64,000 bases of DNA from Colius striatus. Taxonomy: Eukaryota > Chordata > Aves > Coliiformes > Coliidae. A program made the translations under genes and the position numbers. Positions 236 through 13,337 of the stretch are shown here, piece after piece. Numbering within the stretch: the stretch's first letter is position 1; each line of letters begins with the position of its first letter. The stretch spans positions 31,774,664-31,838,663 of the forward strand of contig NC_084768.1 in the NCBI RefSeq assembly GCF_028858725.1, in the 5' to 3' direction. The notes beneath the pieces were generated by a model. The model saw only the letters and a list, made by a program, of their open reading frames with translations. It was not told the DNA's origin and made no database searches.

Positions 236-241
236 TTTATT
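236..241 (-). terminator. Distal poly(A) signal AATAAA (long 3'UTR)
   Basis: The only AATAAA on the minus strand between the USSE and the window edge that I found. A G/T-rich stretch (TGTGGGGTTTGAGAGTGGG) follows at about 203-185, fitting a downstream element, so cleavage would fall near 215-225. Confidence 0.5.
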
Positions 242-1286
242 AGAGATTTCACAAGCAAACAAACAAACATACATTTGTCATGAGTCTTGTGACAGTTTAA
301 AGATATCTGGAACTTTTAGGATGAGAAAACTTAGACTCTGCCTTAAATACTTTACAAACACTACTACGCACAGTTCAAGAGTCCCGGTGATTACAGTGCT
401 TCTTCCCTCAGCTGGGTAATACTTGAAAGAGTTGGAACACAAAAGGGACCTGGAACATCACAAAGGCATGTTAAAAGTAAGAACAGCCAGAAAACAGTAG
501 TGTTATGCCTTCTTTTGACAACTATATTGCAAGATGCTTAGCCTTCAGAAAAGCACCAAATGTCTGGAAATATCTGACTTGACAGATTGCATTAATTTTA
601 TATTATCTGTAAGTCAAACTATGTAATATGAAACCCACAAGAAAAATATCTGAAGTCCCTGCCAACAACACTACCTCAGTGCAGGGAACACCCTAAAAAA
701 GAAAAACCAGCAAGAAGGCAGCAGTGATTAACAGTTCAACACCAAGTACCCCATTGCCAGATGCTGTTAGATTTTCTTCTCAAGAAAGAAAAAAAAAAGT
801 AAGGAATGTACAAACTAGAATCAACTACAGATTGTTTCTCATACACCAGGACAACAGTAATCATCAAGTGATCCAAAGCATTGGTCAGCCCTTCCATATT
901 ATTAAGAATTGCACTGTGACATATTGTAACCAATGTGTTATTGTATTAAGATGACACCCTCAGTGTGAGCTCAGCACAGCTCAACACATGCCAACGGAAC
1001 ACTTCTAGCTCACACAAGCCAAGCAATTTCAACCATGTATCAGCAAGTTATATGATGCTTGAGGAAGAAGGTGGAAACCACCTCTTAAGACTGGGAACCT
1101 TCTTCGTGTCTATTCACACAACACAGACAGCTCATTGATGTTTTTGCTTATTTTTTCCCCCTGAAGTACCCTTTGCTTTTAAAATTACCAGCTTAGTTCA
1201 AGATCTAGAACCTGTAAACTCTTCCCCACATCTACTCTGTACAAAAACTTAGATGTAGTTGAGTTCTATGGGAAACATTGCACAAA
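242..1286 (-). other. RNPC3: RNPC3 long-form terminal 3'UTR exon, distal part
   Basis: AT-rich sequence between the USSE and the distal AATAAA. No coding frame of note and no repeat was recognised. It is read as 3'UTR because the acceptor and USSE lie on one side and a poly(A) signal with a GT-rich downstream stretch on the other (inference). Confidence 0.5.
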
Positions 1287-1310
1287 AAAGGATACAACAA
1301 GAAAGGATAC
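1287..1310 (-). promoter_or_regulatory. USSE, tandem U12-type 5' splice-site motifs (U11 snRNP-binding splicing enhancer)
   Basis: Two exact copies of GTATCCTTT lie on the minus strand at 1310-1302 and 1295-1287, separated by six bases. Tandem U12 donor sequences are the defining feature of the USSE, known from the genes for U11-48K and U11/U12-65K. In the 65K gene it lies in the 3' untranslated region. Two U11 snRNPs bind it and activate the upstream acceptor, giving an mRNA form that is held in the nucleus, so lowering 65K output. The motif is seen directly; the role follows from published work on the family. Confidence 0.88.
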
Positions 1311-1352
1311 ACTCTGCATGACAGTATTACTGCAGTATTACGCAGGAATGTT

Positions 1353-1372
1353 TCTAAAGAAGAACAGCAGAA
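1353..1372 (-). promoter_or_regulatory. Strong splice acceptor upstream of the USSE
   Basis: The minus strand reads TTCTGCTGTTCTTCTTTAG, with AG at 1355-1354 and the exon starting at 1353. It has a long pyrimidine tract and lies 43 bases before the first USSE motif. This is the placement expected of a 3' splice site that U11 on a USSE activates by exon definition. Confidence 0.7.
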
Positions 1373-4009
1373 TGTGGTTTAATTTCACTTGATTCTCAAT
1401 ATTGCACACACAAAACTTTATGCTACCTATATTAAAAGCAAAATTGCTTCTAGCAAAACACAGTTTTGACCCTTGATGAGATTTTAATGAGGGCTGGTGA
1501 GGCCACCAACACTAAACTCTGTACTAAGAAGCAAATATGTTTTTTGATAACTGGAACTCCTAGGCCAACGAGATTTTTCTGTCCCTTTAATTCTCCTTCA
1601 AGTCTTGGCCGTTTTACAGACTCAATTTTCCCCATCAGATCCAAAACCCAATTATGTTTCCATTCAAGTCACTGAAGAAGCTGGAAACCTCTCAACATCA
1701 TTTCCTTCTGTATCATATATATATAATATTTCTTTTCTCCACAAAAACTGCATTTTAGTTGCAGAAAAAAAACAGTTACCTCAAATATTAACTGCAACTT
1801 TTGACAGCCCATCAAGGAAAACCACTTCATCCAGTAAGGAGTTACATAGCATTTGCATAAACCATAAGTATTATTTTCTCTCCAAAGGATATTGCCTCTG
1901 CAGAGAAAATAATAATTAAAAGCTAATTGCAAGAACATTCTTGAATGTAACAGTTTCTTACTGTTAAAAACAAACATAAGTTTAACTTATGTCCATTTAG
2001 TTGTTAAAAACAATCCCCTCAAGAACCTTGAGACACAGATCAATTTGAAGTCCCCCAAATGCTTACATAAACTTGTTTATATGTATATTTATGCACCCAT
2101 GGATCCATAGAAATCTTTATTATTGGTCTATAGCACATTCTGTGGTCTTTACATACCAATGGTCGAGGTAAGGAAGAAGTTCTGCCCTCGATACATTAAA
2201 ACAACAGCAAGGTAACCCATGCAAGACTTTCAGGAGCACAAATAAGTCTTGCATAAGTACATGTTTTCTCACTCTAAAAAAAGGCTTGACCATCAATGTG
2301 ATTAATAAACAAATAAGCACCTCGTTATTTTCTGTGTGTAATTCAAGTATGATTTAGCATATCTCAGTTAGAACTAGATTTCATGTAAGAATTGGGTGGA
2401 AAGACATGGAATTCCTCAAAGAATAAGAGTATTCAGACTTTACTTATAAGGCCTTCCAATAGCTAAAATACCTCAAGTTTCTTTTTGCAGTTAAAGAAAT
2501 CTTAGTAATACATTTTCTTAATTAGACACTGCTTAAAATACAAGTGGGTTTTTTTTCCTGACAAGGAAGGAGTGAGAAACAAGACTGAAACATTCCCCTA
2601 ACCCCTTGTTCTTAACAGAATACTTTGGTCAACGCTCTTTTGTCTCTTCAATAACCAGGACAGAAGAATGCCATCTTCAATTTGATAAAACAAAAGGGAT
2701 TTTGCAAATTACAAATCAGTAGCTCAAAACAGGAACTGGTAAGACCAAATAGCACCTCAGAAACCATGGAAATGAGATCAAATATGATTTGATTTTAAAA
2801 AAACAAACCTTGGAGAACTGACAGAACGTGAAACCTACAACGGAAGGAACTGCTCTAAACAGAAATACTGCCCTCACAGTTACCACACTGCAGGGTCTCC
2901 AACGCAGTTTTAAAAGTCAAAACCAGATGTTCACAATCTTAATTTCAAACTGCAGTTTCTTTGTAAAGTAACAATGATGAAAATATCCACATTAAAACCA
3001 CAGAATGGATTAAGAATAATGTTTCAGAAGCATTCTGCCTGAGTGCATTTGGTCTTACGTGAAGACATAACCAGAGTGATGCCAGTCTAAGTAAGTTTAG
3101 CCCTTTGAATTTGAGCTGGCTGATCTATCAGAGTGTGCAGATTGAGAGATAAGTGATTCTGATACTTGCACCAGTTACTTCAGATGCTCATTTGAGACAG
3201 TTCATCACTCGAATGTTTTTCAGCCATGAAACAGCTCTCAGTTAAATCAGAGCTGATTTTGCTTGAGTTAGCTTTATATAAAACAAACACTTGGAGGAAG
3301 GAGAACTGAAGCAAAGCTATAACATAGGAAATAAAGTTAAATAGTGATTATTTTGTGCTAAAAGTTACTTTTCCATCAAATTTAGACAATAATGCCGAAA
3401 ACTAGGACCTATCATTGAACAACAAAGGAAGCCTTTATCCATGCAACATAGCTCTTTCTGGCACAATATCCTTTCCTAAATCAGGCAAGTTTAAAGGATG
3501 CTGCGACAGCACTAAGATGTCCTCTTTCCAAGTTAGCAAAGCCAAAGGTCCTTTACACAGCTAGCAGAAGGGAGTTTATTGCTAGAAACAGTTCTTCAGG
3601 ATCCCTTTACAATGGTGGGGACAGAAGGGAAGGAGGAAAGTGGCAACTCTTTTCAAAGTCAAAACTCCAGAAAGTTACTGAACGGTAAATGGTCCAATTC
3701 CACAGAATTATTCTCTTTAGCTCCCCAGATTAAGGGCTAGGAAAACTGACAACTACCCTAGGATATCAGGATTAGGGAAACAGCAGTCTCCAAGCTTCTG
3801 AAGAGAGGAAGAAGCAACATTTTTAACTTACACCAGCTATATACTATGCATTCTGGTTTCCTGATGTAAGTGCACATTTAAGAACAGAATGTTGTATGGA
3901 GCATTTCCCTTCCACCATCATTATACTTAAAGAAGCCATTAATAAGATAATAAGTAAAAAACAAAACCAAACCCAACAAGGCAAATGGACAAAATCCCCA
4001 GCCTATTTC
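1354..4009 (-). other. RNPC3: RNPC3 alternative 3'UTR or 3'UTR intron
   Basis: A 2.6-kb AT-rich stretch between the proximal poly(A) signal and the acceptor upstream of the USSE. It holds two more AATAAA hexamers on the minus strand and a 13-bp perfect hairpin with a U12 donor-like loop (1869-1914). The open frames here are short and unrecognised, and I call none of them genes. It is probably intronic in the long mRNA form or untranslated in readthrough forms (inference). Confidence 0.6.
1869..1914 (-). repeat. Perfect 13-bp hairpin with a U12 5'-splice-site-like loop
   Basis: Arms 1869-1881 and 1902-1914 are exact reverse complements (TATTATTTTCTCT and its complement) around a 20-base loop. 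On the minus strand the loop contains ATATCCTTT (1892-1884), the perfect consensus of an AT-type U12 donor, just after a good acceptor (TTTTCTCTGCAG, AG at 1899-1898). The structure is seen directly. A role in U11 binding is inference. Confidence 0.6.
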
Positions 4010-4015
4010 TTTATT
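4010..4015 (-). terminator. Proximal poly(A) signal AATAAA (short 3'UTR)
   Basis: The minus strand has AATAAA 25 bases after the stop codon and 7 bases past the GTATGA donor's last base. A GT-rich stretch (minus strand, about 3985-3950, with TTGTTGGGTTTGGTTTTG) follows as expected for a downstream element. It would give an mRNA with a very short 3'UTR of about 50 bases. Further AATAAA hexamers at 3580-3575 and 2121-2116 could serve readthrough transcripts. Confidence 0.7.
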
Positions 4016-4021
4016 GAAAAT

Positions 4022-4028
4022 TCATACC
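4022..4028 (-). promoter_or_regulatory. Candidate 3'UTR splice donor of RNPC3
   Basis: The minus strand reads CAAG followed by GTATGA, with the last exon base at 4028, 13 bases after the stop codon. It is a reasonable U1-type donor. Splicing from here to the acceptor at 1354 would leave the protein unchanged and put the stop too close to the junction to trigger nonsense-mediated decay. Use of the site is inferred. Confidence 0.6.
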
Positions 4029-4040
4029 TTGTGCAGTGTT

Positions 4041-4100
4041 CTACTTTTTCCTTTTCCCCTCATTGGCATCCTGTTTTGGTCTGGCTGAACGAGCAAATTG
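4041..4100 (-). CDS. RNPC3: RNPC3 coding exon 14 (C-terminus and stop)
   Basis: Encodes [19 protein letters not shown] and a TAG stop at 4043-4041, aligning with human [19 protein letters not shown] as recalled. The segment is short and is hidden among other frames. It was found by matching the expected [11 protein letters not shown] end of RRM2. The acceptor is ATCTCAG with no polypyrimidine tract, as expected for a U12-type intron. Confidence 0.94.
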   Translation of the reverse strand, partial: QFARSARPKQDANEGKRKK

Positions 4101-7100
4101 CTGAGATTCTGTTAAGGACTACAATGGTCAGTAATAAACAGAAGCCAATCAAGCAGTAAAAAAAGAGCAGCATTATTTCAGCAAAAGGTAGTTTAAAGAG
4201 CAGCTTTTATCCCTGAATCAATTCTACTACAGTATAAATATTCTAACTTTAGTGTCTACTACTCAAACTGATTTGCAGTATCAAAAATGTTAAGAGAGTC
4301 TGCCCAAGAATATACAGGACTAAGCAAACAGGGAGGACTAACCAGGAATGAGTTAGGCATAGAGAGTAAATACAGCAGCAAAAAGGCTTGACATTTACAG
4401 TCATGTAGCATGTAGCCATGCCAGTATGTTAATTCCATAACTTTGATGTCTCAGTAGGTATTTGGGAGTAGAACACTTAAGAGGAATGAGGTTAGGGTGA
4501 ACAAGAGTACAAAGAAAAGGAAATTAACTGTGAGACATTTAAATGAAAAATAAGAAAGGACTTACAAAAAAACAGGGCAATGCAGTCAAAAAGCATAGAA
4601 GTCCCAAAGAGTAACTGACTGGAGAAGCAGTCTAAATAGAGACAACTGACCCTGACAGGAATACTATGTTCTTAATTCTGTAAACACAGGCTTCACCAAA
4701 ACAAAAAGCCTACTTCATTTAAATGAAATGGTCATACAAGCTAAATTATCTTTGTGTTTCTAGGATCAATGAACTAAGACTAGAGGAGATAATTTTATTG
4801 TCTTAAATAAAGCACATTTACTTTCCTGTTTCAGAAGAGCTGCCTCTATGTATCATTCAGTTAGCGTAAAATTAACAATACTACACTATTCTATGCTGCC
4901 TGGTGCTCTTAAGGCATTTCCTCTTTCCATAGTTTTCTAGCAAGTAGAAGAGTGTGACAGCAGAACTAGAGATTGAAGGATAGATCACAATAAATATAAT
5001 GCAAATGTTTGCAGGAAAAAAAAGATACAACCACCATGGGTTTCTCAAATAAAACATATCCATTTGCTTCTTTTAAAGCTTTAGCAGCTGCTTTTTCATT
5101 AGGAAGTCCAATGAAAGCCTGTCCCTTCATCCGGCCTTCTTTCATCAAACGTATATCAAACCTAGAGGCAAAAGTGACAGTTACTCATGATTAACCACAC
5201 TTTCGTGTTTCACAGCTCACATGTCATTCTCATGCTTGGAGTTGGAGAACCAGCAGAAATGGGAGCAGAGCCTCAAACCAGGAATTATGTAATTGCAAAC
5301 CGTTTTGCCTGGGGATGATGTTTAGTAACAAGCATTAAGACATTTCTGTATTAGACTGCAGAATGGGCAATTGGTGTGCAACTGTAGTAAATATGGCACA
5401 TGTTAAATGATCAGATGCACACAATCATCTACACTGTTCATTCTCCTGTCACTCTGCCAATAAGCAGTGAATTTAGTAATGACAATGTAAGGGTGAAATA
5501 GTAGGGTCTCCAGACGCTGTTTAAAAGTTTCTTTTGAGATAGCATAAAGAAAAAGAAAAGATGACTAGTTCTTAAATCCCAATTTACACCAGTATTACAC
5601 AACACAAAAGGCATGGTTTTCACCAAGTACCACATTAACTTACATATTTCGTTCCTCTTCTGACTGGAAATCAACGTATCTTCCAAAAATGAACTTGAGA
5701 TCCTGAAATTAAAGGGTAGGTGTAGCAGTAAAGCTGATAAAAAAAGCCCCTTTGATCAATATTTAACTTGCTTGTTTACCTACCTTTTCTTGAACTTGTT
5801 TAGCTAAATTCTTCACATATATCCTGCAGTTTGGATCACCTGGCTCATAGTTTTTGAAAACAGAGTATTTTTCCATTTCTTAGAGAGACAGAAAAACAGA
5901 CAATGTTTCAGCTCATTGACATACTTTCTATTTCTGTTCCATATAAAATATCGAAATTTAATGTATGGTCAATCATTACAGGAAATACTCATTTAAACTA
6001 TTTGTTCCAACAAAGAGCTGTTATTAGATAACTTATTCTCCCAGTTATACCTTCTCTAGAAAGTCTGTTTTTTTCTAGATCCCTTCTAGAAATAAATTCT
6101 GATGGTATTTCATCGTCTTCCTCCTCAGTTTCCATTTTATCATTTGAGCTAGGAGCTGGGAAAATCCTTCCAAAGCCTGTGTTATTGACTTCCTCTGTGG
6201 CTGCACGAAGGTCTGAAATTTACAACACATTATGTAAGTGGTTTGTATGTTTCAATGGTTCATCTAATTTTCATTGAGGAAAACTGTGTCTATTACAGTA
6301 CAATACCAAGAAACACAGACTGACCACAACCCTCTAAGAAATCATCACATCTCATTGCCATTATCACCCAGTATTTTTATAGTAGATAACCAGTGCACCG
6401 CAGGAGCTGGCCATCACTTGAATGCTGCTCTTTAAGAGCTAGAAAAGGAAAATCTAAAGTTAGCCTGATGAATATATTCAAGTACACTGTATAACACAAA
6501 GTGCAATTCACCATAAAGCCATGGTGCTTTAACATGGGGAAAACAGCAGATGCAGAGCAGACACAAGTTGGTGTTCTTAAACAAGCCCTGATGTATATAC
6601 TATTTAAGAAAGTTCCAATAGAAAAGAATTCCCTGGTCTAAATTTCAGCAGCCTTCTACACACTGAAGCCACATGAATTCCATATTAAATGCATCTGAAT
6701 CACAAACTCCCTTACCATTTCTTTCTTCTTTTTCTGAGTTTATCTGAAGAACAGCTGGGATGTCAGTAGTAATATGGAACTCGATTTTTTTATGACCTAC
6801 ATGCTGTGGCTGCTCAAAGACATCTGAAGGTGACAGTGTAGGGTGCAAACTGCTGGTTAAAACAACAGAACCTTAATTAAAAGGTACAGATACTGATGAA
6901 TGCAGAGTCAAATAGAGGATTTCTTCCAGAAAGATTTTACGCTACGTTTACCACAAGTACCCAAGCCTTCCATGTCATAAATTTCACCCAGCACAGTTCA
7001 AGTTGATTAGAACACAGTAAATACAGTTGGCATGGCTGGCAGCAAGAGCAGAAGAGTTATGTACCACATTACAGTACAAACAGGCACTTAGGAAAAACTA

Positions 7101-10100
7101 CACCAGTAACTTGGATAAGAAAAGTAAGTGGCCTTGCTGCTGCTCTCACAGAGTATCAAGTATGCCAAATTTTCAAAAATCACTCAGAGGAGGAAGAATG
7201 CAACTCAAAAATACACCCACAAGTGATCATATCTACACAGAAATACTACACTGATGTCTACTGTGCCACAGTGCTGCAGTTTCAAAAACCAAAGCAGCTT
7301 TTATTCTTCCATAATCATCCTTACATTTATTTCAAGAAGTATCAAAATAATAAATACAGATTGCTCCTGTCAAGGTTAAGCCATGACAATGCTTTTCCTT
7401 TTTATGAAAGGAGGATTTTTCTTAGTTTGATAAGCTAGATGTGTTTGTTTTGAGAAACACAGAGCTTGAAGCAGGCACACTTTACAGATTAAAGTTGTTG
7501 AGCAGATCTGAATTCAAATGACACAAAAATTTGGACCTTTAGAAGAATCAAATCAAGTATGAGGATAAGGGAACACCACCTCCACTAGCAAATTTACCAA
7601 ATCAGTGAAGAATACTTGTATTAAACCAGAAACACTAAAGGAAACATCATACAGAGATTATTATGTACTACATGGAATAATTTTGTGAAAAGCTGCAAAA
7701 GCCACACAAACAATACAAACCTGTGGGGAGTACACACAGGAACATTCAGCAAGTCTTTAATTCTTTGCCTTTTTCTAACACCACGCTTCTTTGTGTTTAT
7801 TGGTCTTTTAGGCTGAAGGGTTGCTAATTCCATCAACTTGGTCATTCTATTTTAAGCAACATTTTAAAAAGAGTTAAAAGTGGTTTACAGTTTATTTGAA
7901 AATACTCATTTTGAAAACACTTTCTCCTTCCTTAAGGCTCTTGAAACACAACTTTTCAGAATATGGTTATAAATCCAGCTATCTCAAGAGAAAAACTACC
8001 TTAATAAACTGACACACAGCAAACTGACACTTAAGCTGACACTGACACTTAACTGACACTTTGATAATTGATCAAAATCCTAAGTAGCTGGATGACACCC
8101 CTTCCTTCCCCTGGCATGCACCTAATTAGGACAATGTAGAAATGCTACGAAGCCCCAAGCTGAACCTTTATTTTAAATAAATACTATTTCCACTCAACAG
8201 GAGTGCCTTTTCCCAAAAGCACGTATTAATACAAACACAGCACAGCAGCTTTCTGATTTACTTTTCAGTTTAAGTACAAATGAAGAAAATTGCCTTCTCA
8301 TTTAGTATTAAAGATTAATAAAATGAGCTATGATGTAATTCAGCCCCAAAACTGAAAGAGGATCCTGCAGCACAAACAAGCACCCATTACTATTATTCCC
8401 AGCAAGACATACTGATGCACAAAGAATGTTTTGCAAGTCAGAGTGCACGTATCATTCAGGCTGAGGAGTTTACCACTCAGTAAAAAGCAAGTGAAGAATC
8501 CAGAGAAACTAACTATTGCTTCCATCAGCACTCCCCCTCCCATTCACTGTGTCTGTTCTGTTGGGTTTTTGGACATGGTAACAAATGTTAATTTGCATAC
8601 CATTTGACCATTTTCCCTTCTCTTACTGTGATTCAGAACAGCACTGTCCTCCTGTTTTTAAGTCACTTTGAAGCATCCTTATGTGCCTGGAAAGATTATC
8701 TTACCTATTGCAAACATTAACAGATTCTACCATCTGCTGATCTAGAAGCTTCTTAGAAAAGCAGAAACACCACTTTAGAAAAGCCCAAAAGCTTGTAAAT
8801 GACTAAAATGCATACCTCTCCTTTTCTTCCTCATCTTCACTTTCATATTCTGACTCTTCTGAACTAGACAGTTGCTGCTCTTCCTCTTTAGGCAAAGGGG
8901 GGTCTTCAGGAGGCAGAGGTGGGATCGGGGGAGGTGGCACAGGCACTGGTAAATACTCTTCATACTAATTATGGGGAAAATTTAAAAGAATTAAACATTT
9001 TAAGAAAAAAAATAATACATCTTGCTTTCCCTTTCATAATAAAACCAGTGACAATAATTAATTAGAACATGACAGGAAGCACTTTAATAATATGTATATA
9101 GGGATCAAAAGTTTTAGGAGTTTGAATGTAGACCTGCTACCACATTGCTAACATTTTTAACCCTGAATCTGTTTGAGAGTACTTAAAACGTGAATTTAAA
9201 AAGTTACCATGGGAGGGCGAGCAGTAATTGGTCCAAAAGGTGGAGGAAGATTCATTTTATTCATAAGATGAAGTACCTGAAATGATGGAAGAAAGATTTC
9301 CCTTAAATAACTAAAGACAGTTCCTTCTAGGTATCATAGTCAGCAACTTCTGGCAGGGATACATCAGCACAGTTTTAATGAAGACACAACTACATTGATT
9401 ATTAAACAACGCAAAAGCCTGCACTGGAGATCCAACTAACTGTAAACATGAGTCATACACCAAGTACTCAAGTCACCTCTAATTAGGTAGATCATACCCA
9501 GTTAAGTCTCCAGTGTCAATTAAGTAAGTTACTCCTTGTCAATGAAAGACAATTCAAAGAGGAAAACAGAGATGTTTCTACTTTGATACTTCCATTTTTT
9601 GCTGTTTTTTACTCACCTGGACATAAAATTTGGGCACGCTTGCCAAGGCATTTGCTATGTTTGCTAGAATTGTACTTGAAGGCGGTGGATACAAATATTT
9701 GAGGCAAGAATTGATGGGAAAGGTGAGGCTAAGGAAAAAAGCAGATTAAAAAGAAAACATTTTAGCACCATCACCACATAAGGAATGATAACAACAATTA
9801 CTAGAGGTTTGGCTACTCGTTACCTCTGAAGTATCACTGAAATATTATTATTTCCCTAAGAAAAGTTTTGGGACACCTACATTTTGTCTTTAACGTGAGG
9901 GAGCTCTCCTAAGGCCTGACAGACTCACTGGGCTTGGGTATAATGAAAGTATCAACACATGGAGGAAGCCTGAAGTACACAGAAATAATCACAGATTCTT
10001 AAGGGTTGGAAAGGACCTCAAAAGATCGTCTAGTCCAATGCCCCTGCCAGAGCAGGGGCACCTAGAGTAAGTCACACAGGAACTTGTCCACAGTCAACCT

Positions 10101-13100: not shown

Positions 13101-13337
13101 CCGGCCCCTCACCAGCCGCCCGTGGTCCGCCAGGACGCGCACAGACACCGCCCCGAAGTGCTTCAGCAGATCCTCCTTCTCCGCCGCCGTCAGCTCGGCA
13201 GGCAGGTGCCGCACCAGCAGCGTCCGGCCCCGCCGCCGCGCCACGCCGGGGTGAGGGGGGACGCCGGGGTGAGGGGGCCCGGCGCCCAGCCCCCCGCCCG
13301 CCGGCCGCGGCTCCTCACAGCCCGGCGCCGCCGCCAT
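4041..13337 (-). CDS. RNPC3: RNPC3, U11/U12 small nuclear ribonucleoprotein 65 kDa protein (14 coding exons)
   Basis: Nuclear RNA-binding protein of the U11/U12 di-snRNP of the minor spliceosome. In the known family the N-terminal half contacts U11-59K (PDCD7) and the C-terminal RRM binds the 3' stem-loop of U12 snRNA, bridging the two snRNPs. The joined exons total 1572 bp (523 residues plus stop), all in phase with GT-AG borders. RRM1 is about residues 38-113 (RNP2-like LLVRHLP, RNP1-like TAFATF). Next come a proline-rich stretch (about 222-240) and an acidic Ser/Glu stretch (about 242-266). RRM2 is about residues 427-508 ([14 protein letters not shown]). The start is the ATG that gives MAAAPG, in the same frame as an upstream ATG at 13403 that lies in the promoter. 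The C-terminus ends KRKK, where I recall KRKC in human. By alignment to recalled human numbering, P480 and R508 correspond to the positions of the P474T and R502X growth-hormone-deficiency alleles; both are wild type here. Confidence 0.96.
4101..5028 (-). other. RNPC3: RNPC3 intron 13, U12-type (minor spliceosome) GT-AG intron
   Basis: The donor at 5028-5020 reads GTATCTTTT, one base from the U12 consensus GTATCCTTT. It is a very poor U1 match beyond GTA. The branch site at 4118-4111 reads TCCTTAAC, an exact match to the U12 branch consensus core, with the branch A at 4112, 11 bases from the intron end. There is no polypyrimidine tract before the CAG acceptor. These three features together define U12-type introns. 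All other introns of the gene lack them. Confidence 0.88.
4111..4118 (-). promoter_or_regulatory. U12-type branch-point sequence
   Basis: The minus strand reads TCCTTAAC, ending 10 bases before the splice junction of exon 14. This spacing is within the narrow window typical of U12-type introns. Confidence 0.87.
5029..5161 (-). CDS. RNPC3: RNPC3 coding exon 13 (RRM2 core)
   Basis: Encodes [20 protein letters not shown], with RNP1 as GQAFIGLP, followed by [20 protein letters not shown] and PMVV. The acceptor is TGCCTCTAG. The donor is GTATCTTTT, which fits a U12-type and not a U1-type site. If the following intron were retained, translation would run on to a stop at 4966-4968, giving a protein lacking the last RRM2 strand. 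Confidence 0.95.
5644..5702 (-). CDS. RNPC3: RNPC3 coding exon 12 (RRM2)
   Basis: A 59-bp exon encoding [19 protein letters not shown] plus two bases of the next Met codon. It is the alpha-1 and loop region of RRM2. The acceptor is AATTTCAG and the donor is GTAAGT. The preceding intron is only 81 bp. Confidence 0.95.
5784..5878 (-). CDS. RNPC3: RNPC3 coding exon 11 (start of RRM2)
   Basis: Encodes [17 protein letters not shown] and then [20 protein letters not shown] is the RNP2 strand of RRM2, the U12 snRNA-binding domain. The acceptor is TCTCTAAG and the donor is GTAGGT. It ends in phase 0 (residues 409-440). Confidence 0.96.
6051..6212 (-). CDS. RNPC3: RNPC3 coding exon 10
   Basis: Encodes [20 protein letters not shown], an acidic METEEEDDE run, and then [19 protein letters not shown], which matches the human region leading into RRM2. 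The acceptor is AATTTCAG and the donor is GTATAA. It is in phase 1 at both ends. Confidence 0.95.
6716..6849 (-). CDS. RNPC3: RNPC3 coding exon 9
   Basis: Encodes [20 protein letters not shown] and then [16 protein letters not shown], aligning with the human segment around SDVFDQPQ and RIEFHISTD. The second half (INSEKEERN) is less conserved. The acceptor is ACCAGCAG and the donor is GTAAGG. It ends in phase 1. Confidence 0.94.
7721..7846 (-). CDS. RNPC3: RNPC3 coding exon 8 (basic segment)
   Basis: Encodes [20 protein letters not shown] followed by [20 protein letters not shown]. This is a basic stretch that could act as a nuclear localisation signal (inference). The acceptor is TTAAAATAG and the donor is GTTTGT. 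It is in phase 2 at both ends. Confidence 0.94.
8009..8061. repeat. Small CTGACACTTA tandem repeat in RNPC3 intron 7
   Basis: Several imperfect copies of CTGACACTTA or CTGACACT in a row. It is short and diverged, with no sign of function. Confidence 0.7.
8816..8964 (-). CDS. RNPC3: RNPC3 coding exon 7 (proline-rich and acidic segment)
   Basis: Encodes [18 protein letters not shown] followed by [20 protein letters not shown] and an acidic run ending KER. The polyproline stretch and the Ser/Glu run suggest a disordered linker with possible casein-kinase-2-type sites (inference). The acceptor is ATAATTAG and the donor is GTATGC. It ends in phase 2, with the last Arg codon split. Confidence 0.94.
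9208..9276 (-). CDS. RNPC3: RNPC3 coding exon 6
   Basis: A 69-bp exon encoding [17 protein letters not shown] and then TARPPM, near-identical to the mammalian protein. The acceptor is ATTTCAG and the donor is GTAACT. It is in phase 0 at both ends. Confidence 0.95.
9617..9728 (-). CDS. RNPC3: RNPC3 coding exon 5
   Basis: Encodes [18 protein letters not shown] and then [19 protein letters not shown], a strongly conserved block of the 65K linker. The acceptor is TTCCTTAG and the donor is a consensus GTGAGT. It enters in phase 2 and ends in phase 0. Confidence 0.96.
9987..10100 (-). mobile_element. Old CR1 LINE 3' fragment in RNPC3 intron 4
   Basis: Plus-strand text AAGGGTTGGAAAGGACCT, then TAGTCCAATGCCCCTGCC and CAGGGGCACCTAGAG, is the reverse complement of the CR1 3' end. 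It is diverged and 5'-truncated. It has the same orientation as the gene. Confidence 0.85.
10564..10644 (-). CDS. RNPC3: RNPC3 coding exon 4 (charged linker)
   Basis: An 81-bp exon encoding a Glu/Lys-rich linker ([14 protein letters not shown]) and then [10 protein letters not shown], where IAPNHG matches the human protein as recalled. The acceptor is TTTTTAG and the donor is GTTAGT. It enters and leaves in phase 2, so the terminal glycine codon is split with exon 5. Confidence 0.94.
11484..11602 (-). CDS. RNPC3: RNPC3 coding exon 3 (completes RRM1)
   Basis: Encodes the last helix and strand of RRM1 ([19 protein letters not shown]) and the following linker ending in KCK plus two bases of the next codon. 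The acceptor is AAG preceded by a long CT tract (complement of the purine run at about 11621-11650). The donor is GTATGT. It ends in phase 2. Confidence 0.95.
12034..12081 (-). CDS. RNPC3: RNPC3 coding exon 2 (residues 76-91)
   Basis: A 48-bp micro-exon encoding [16 protein letters not shown], which carries the RNP1 motif of RRM1. It is flanked by acceptor TTTTCTAG and donor GTTTGT and is in phase 0 at both ends. It is too short to appear as an open reading frame. It was placed because it joins exons 1 and 3 exactly as in the human protein. Confidence 0.95.
13113..13337 (-). CDS. RNPC3: RNPC3 coding exon 1 (residues 1-75)
   Basis: Starts at the ATG on 13337-13335 and ends before a GTGAGG donor at 13112. 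It encodes a Gly/Pro-rich N-terminal tail and the first half of RRM1 ([12 protein letters not shown], then [12 protein letters not shown]). The tail contains a duplicated hexapeptide PPHPGV from an 18-bp tandem duplication (13243-13278). Base composition is very GC-rich because the exon sits inside the CpG island. The exon ends in phase 0. The 5'UTR boundary is not defined by sequence alone. Confidence 0.93.
13243..13278. repeat. 18-bp tandem duplication inside RNPC3 exon 1
   Basis: ACGCCGGGGTGAGGGGGG is followed directly by a copy differing at the last base. Read on the minus strand it gives PPHPGV twice (residues 21-32) in the N-terminal tail. The reading frame is kept. Confidence 0.85.

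Follow-up and report, generated by a model that had tools for sequence, protein, structure and literature searches.

The window analyzed here is a 64,000-nt stretch of the genome of the bird Colius striatus (contig NC_084768.1, positions 31,774,664 to 31,838,663). In keeping with a bird, this genome has at least 150 beta-keratin matches (Pfam Keratin family PF02422, from 150 of 216 candidates that were scored). Its minus strand, on which all features described below lie unless stated otherwise, carries RNPC3, the gene of the U11/U12-65K protein. Beyond the stop codon of RNPC3 are a splice donor, candidate acceptors, two poly(A) signals and a tandem of U12-type 5' splice sites, and an amylase gene follows on the same strand. 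The locus is very probably the bird ortholog of the published feedback loop in which a U11 small nuclear ribonucleoprotein (snRNP)-binding splicing enhancer (USSE) acts on RNPC3, with the wiring of two acceptors.

The RNPC3 gene and its last coding exon

RNPC3 extends from 13337 to 4041, where 14 coding exons join into an intact frame of 524 aa and all 13 coding introns have GT-AG borders. The C-terminal RRM region of the protein (residues 387-523) has a match at 3.6e-72 to PDB entry 3egn, named there "RNA-binding protein 40". The gene name proposed from the sequence alone is borne out by this frame and this match. Exon 1 of the spliced frame (13113-13337) begins with the start codon at 13337, exon 13 (5029-5161) encodes part of the C-terminal RRM (RRM_1, 2.9e-05), and the last coding exon (4028-4100) is only 73 nt long, with the stop codon TAG at 4043-4041 and the exon end 13 nt past the stop. 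A search of the bird's own genome gave twelve matches to RNPC3, eleven at the locus itself and one at a distance on contig C19, and no retrocopy able to reveal the 3' end of the mRNA was among them. The distant match (L033, G000:C19:13439963-13440364) is an RRM relative with 32% identity and an uninterrupted frame of 276 aa, for which RBM41 is a guessed name. No match at gathering scores was obtained in an Rfam scan of the 64-kb window.

The last coding intron (5028-4101) is of the U12 type. All 13 coding introns and the intron of the 3' untranslated region (UTR) were tested against U12 consensus words, and splice sites were scored throughout with generic vertebrate frequency matrices not fitted to this genome. 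The 5' splice site of the last intron, GTATCTTTT, has one mismatch to the U12 word and its branch site, TCCTTAAC at 4118-4111, has none; the branch A precedes the AG end by 11 nt, and the U2-type donor score is -1.0. The other 12 coding introns display 2-7 mismatches at the 5' splice site and 3-4 at the branch site, together with U2 scores of 4.0-12.5. The introns at 9207 and 8815 have just two mismatches to the U12 5' splice site but three at the branch site, and their U2 scores (6.4 and 7.3) are normal. A U12-type last intron is expected in a bird RNPC3, because the gene is included in a published listing of minor-intron genes (PMC6865273) and, according to PMC10639083, chicken retains 94% of the minor introns of human. 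RNPC3, which encodes a part of the minor spliceosome, depends on the minor spliceosome for its own stop-codon exon. A joint action of this intron and the USSE was not discussed in the literature passages that came up, which did not constitute a full search.

Elements of the 3' untranslated region

The donor AAG/GTATGA (GTATGA at 4022-4027, first G at 4027) is of the U2 type and is expected to be common to both isoforms. Its score of 7.8 exceeds those of 99.0% of the 3430 minus-strand GTs in the window. The proximal acceptor AG (1354-1355) scores 9.8, above 98.9% of the 4449 minus-strand AGs, and is the one expected to be activated by the USSE, with an exon starting at 1353. Based on these site scores, a 3'UTR intron of 2674 nt (1354-4027) is predicted for the long isoform, in agreement with the 2.7 kb given in the sequence-only reading. 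The strength claimed there for the acceptor holds as far as its own score goes. However, it is not the best one nearby, as the AGs at 693 and 779 score 11.4 and 10.0, respectively.

The USSE (1287-1310) has the form GTATCCTTT-cttgtt-GTATCCTTT, with perfect copies at 1310-1302 and 1295-1287. The first copy begins 43 nt into the exon, just as previously noted, and the exon length between acceptor and USSE is described as being under constraint (PMC8329584). The 5' end of U11 small nuclear RNA (snRNA), AAAAAGGGC, is present in the same genome (at L011). On both strands of the window, the only pair of RTATCCTTT words within 30 nt is this tandem; no pair occurred in 60 Markov-simulated strands, the expectation being about 2e-4. 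In the whole genome of 1.21 Gb, GTATCCTTT pairs spaced 2-14 nt apart were counted seven times, against 19 (7 + 12) for the reversed-pattern control. We therefore reject the tandem as significant by itself: the motif alone proves nothing because its pairs are fewer than those of the reversed pattern, and it is the position inside RNPC3 that carries the weight. The earlier assignment of the tandem as a USSE is supported.

Among the seven genomic pairs, only those of RNPC3 and locus L003 are preceded within 90 nt by an AG with a score above 9. The tandem at L003:1501-1522 (G000:C8:12125374-12125395), 32 nt downstream of a good AG, is probably a chance occurrence. L003 was rejected as an additional USSE target gene, and its flank resembles a CR1 repeat by eye. 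No host gene was recognised there among the 40 longest frames over 39.6 kb, frames on which no protein search was run.

Farther downstream, a suboptimal U1 site, CT/GTGCGT (366-373, score 3.2), is located with its donor G (371) 130 nt before the distal AATAAA. It fits the word CT/GTrCGT that we deduced from the compensatory U1 mutant T4G,CT8/9AG (PMC5473595), with the mutant numbering counted from the second base of the U1 5' end. On its minus strand the window holds a single CTGTRCGT, at 373-366; two more are on the plus strand. The distal AATAAA (236-241) ranks seventh among the 128 AATAAA in the window by downstream-element score, which is reached by 6.6% of random positions, and third by downstream G/T content. 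This single U1 site at such a distance ties the terminal exon of the bird to the published one, and the AATAAA at 241 is therefore probably the shared, conserved poly(A) signal and not one specific to the long form.

Twelve AGs score above 4 between the USSE and the U1 site and are candidates for the distal acceptor. The strongest is the AG at 693-694 (score 11.4, 99.7 percentile), while those at 450-451 (7.5, 95.3 percentile) and 412-413 (6.0, 90.3 percentile) are closer and closest to the U1 site; these three are the preferred candidates.

A second AATAAA (4010-4015) lies next to the donor and is a candidate intronic poly(A) signal. Its downstream G/T fraction of 0.82 is the highest of the 128 AATAAA in the window, which agrees with the GT-rich tail reported for it, and its downstream-element score ranks tenth. 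Taken singly, the element scores of this signal and of the distal AATAAA are modest. The spacing of seven bases between donor and signal had been singled out as the feature to look at first; the signal in fact begins 12 bases past the donor G (intron base 13), and six bases separate the two hexamers. Otherwise the order of elements given in the sequence-only reading, namely stop codon, donor at 4027, AATAAA at 4015-4010, acceptor at 1354, USSE pair and AATAAA at 241-236, is present on the minus strand as described. The switch so listed had been called complete, although neither the distal (second) acceptor nor the U1 site known from the published switch is on the list.

The amylase gene (L008) is next on the same strand, and its start codon follows the poly(A) signal of RNPC3 at a distance of 3921 nt.

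Probable wiring of the switch and competing explanations

RNPC3 is one of two genes with published USSEs (PMC6865273), and a review describes USSE feedback as spanning plants and animals, with the highest conservation in vertebrates (PMC3584512). According to Verbeeren et al. 2017 (PMC5473595), U11 bound to the USSE of RNPC3 in mammalian cells activates the upstream 3' splice site and yields a long, nuclear 3'UTR. The short, exported mRNA is derived from a second, downstream 3' splice site, and both forms end at one conserved poly(A) site. A suboptimal U1 site is located about 100 bp above this poly(A) site in all Tetrapoda examined there, birds included, and human amylase lies about 15 kb downstream of the gene. 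According to that account, neither rapid amplification of cDNA 3' ends (3'RACE; reporter constructs in CHO cells) nor RNAseq revealed an alternative poly(A) site nearby, with the coverage of the 3'UTR intron by 3'RACE uncertain.

The bird locus shares with the human and mouse switch the gene, the tandem U12-type 5' splice sites, the U2-type acceptor upstream of them, the suboptimal U1 site, the terminal poly(A) signal and the amylase gene next on the same strand. It differs in the distance to amylase (3.9 kb versus about 15 kb), in the distance from the U1 site to the poly(A) signal (130 nt versus about 100) and in the donor-adjacent AATAAA, for which no description came up in the consulted passages of PMC5473595. 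Because a matching U1 site and terminal exon are present, the same wiring is taken as the default for the bird, and the U1 site at 373-366 together with the same-strand amylase 3.9 kb downstream argues that the locus follows the published plan.

By analogy with the mammalian cells, U11 binding, the choice of splice site, nuclear retention and read-through would proceed in the bird as follows. The donor at 4027 would be spliced in both isoforms. When plentiful, the U11/U12 di-snRNP would bind the tandem at 1310-1287 and activate the U2-type acceptor at 1354 by exon definition. Use of this acceptor would yield a long 3'UTR (1353 to about 220) that is retained in the nucleus, and the 65K level would fall. 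When U11 is scarce, splicing would shift to the distal acceptor (693, 450, 412 or another AG there) and give a short, exported 3'UTR. Long and short isoforms would share the AATAAA at 241 as their poly(A) signal. Cleavage of the long form would be hampered by the suboptimal U1 site at 371, making read-through toward the downstream amylase possible.

The earlier proposal that high U11, by way of a long nuclear mRNA, would reduce 65K finds support in the mammalian-cell paper (PMC5473595). Its suggestion that the short mRNA is unspliced and cut at the proximal AATAAA is unsupported as stated, since the mammalian short form is spliced to the distal 3' splice site, and the wiring is corrected here in this respect. 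The circuit is also already known, and to find it in a bird, which had been presented as showing its depth of conservation, is no novelty: the U1 site in birds (PMC5473595) and the conservation of the feedback (PMC3584512) are in print. Our contribution is that, except for the distal acceptor, nearly all published elements of the 65K feedback now have exact positions in a bird locus. Literature searches gave nothing on topic, judged by title and abstract start, for the chicken RNPC3 3'UTR and amylase, and nothing relevant among the matches listed for USSEs in birds.

Several observations weigh against the two-acceptor wiring. The calculated pairing of the two USSE copies with U11 (-4.9 and -6.1 kcal/mol) is no stronger than that of random 15-mers, 15% of which reach -7.0. 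Pairing of the U1 site likewise does not surpass that of 21% of random 11-mers, which is compatible with a suboptimal site. Duplex energies of U11 and U1 did not discriminate the sites from random sequence. As many as 12 AGs qualify as the distal acceptor and the strongest of them, at 693, is far from the U1 site, which is itself somewhat farther from the poly(A) signal than the published distance. Finally, a good-looking poly(A) signal lies within an intron that is supposed to be always spliced.

This last signal is the basis of two other explanations. The sequence-only reading saw a direct contest between splicing of the donor at 4027 and cutting at the AATAAA at 4015, with the short form unspliced. 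The G/T-rich flank and element score of the signal agree with such a contest, an mRNA cut there would lose no coding sequence and have a 3'UTR of about 50 nt, and chance alone places an AATAAA no more than 20 nt from a particular donor in just about 1.4-1.9% of cases. However, 9.9% of random positions reach the same downstream-element score, the donor is good, and U1 bound to it, 12 nt ahead of the signal, should act as a shield. The contest also conflicts with the spliced short form and the lack of a reported nearby poly(A) site in mammals (PMC5473595) and leaves the U1 site at 371 without a role. We consider it distinctly improbable. A three-way switch, in which the published choice between two acceptors is supplemented by use of the donor-adjacent signal when U1 is limiting, is less doubtful, though still rather unlikely. 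Both poly(A) signals of the locus are high in downstream G/T, and silencing of intronic signals by U1, known as telescripting, is established (PMC5499120, PMC6946686). It is compatible with the two-acceptor wiring and is an addition to it. That the tandem is a chance match in an ordinary 3'UTR is very improbable indeed. The tandem is no commoner in the genome than its reversed control, and a good AG also precedes one of the six other pairs, that of L003, which lies beside CR1-like sequence. However, the genome density gives only about 4e-4 tandems per 64 kb, and this one is found in one of two published USSE genes with acceptor, U1 site and poly(A) signal in the expected order.

The contest in the IgM heavy chain gene swaps protein ends, whereas the protein of RNPC3 would stay unchanged. 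Both genes possess an intronic poly(A) signal between donor and acceptor; the IgM donor is suboptimal (as cited in PMC5473595), in contrast to the good donor of RNPC3 (7.8, 99 percentile). The AATAAA at 4015 may function as an intronic poly(A) site that U1 at the donor keeps silent, and an extra contest of the IgM type is possible because this signal has the most G/T-rich downstream flank of the 128. No report on intronic polyadenylation of RNPC3 was found in our literature search. If the site is used, a single exon of 73 nt and its surroundings would sense the supplies of U1, U11 and U12 alike. The last coding exon of RNPC3 in birds could then be a sensor of spliceosome supply with three inputs and an output of 65K that peaks in a band, a reading we regard as speculative and unlikely. 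On its entry side the U12-type intron would need minor-spliceosome activity, and too little would block the coding end. On its exit side the supply of U1 would decide between cutting at the poly(A) signal 12 nt past the donor and splicing on. The USSE would read U11 and divert any excess into the nuclear long mRNA, so that too much U11 diverts the 3' end.

The second USSE gene and the amylase flank

SNRNP48 (U11-48K) has the same type of enhancer and the same U11 logic as RNPC3 (PMC5473595, PMC8329584). Unlike in RNPC3, its USSE works through a poison exon and nonsense-mediated decay. Five matches to SNRNP48 are located on contig C6 of this genome, and a stretch of 9901 bases (L017) was taken from there. 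No tandem USSE with up to two total mismatches and 11-29 nt from start to start was found in these 9901 bases. A degenerate tandem, GTGTCCTTT-ggc-GTGATCCCTT, was recognised by eye at L017:4070-4049 (minus strand), 33 nt into a putative exon after an AG ending at 4104, and may be a diverged USSE.

Between RNPC3 and amylase we also observed a CpG-rich stretch (L008:8464-8200, minus strand) with a G+C content of 0.78 and a CpG observed/expected ratio of 0.96. It lies about 2 kb ahead of the amylase start codon and is perhaps a promoter.

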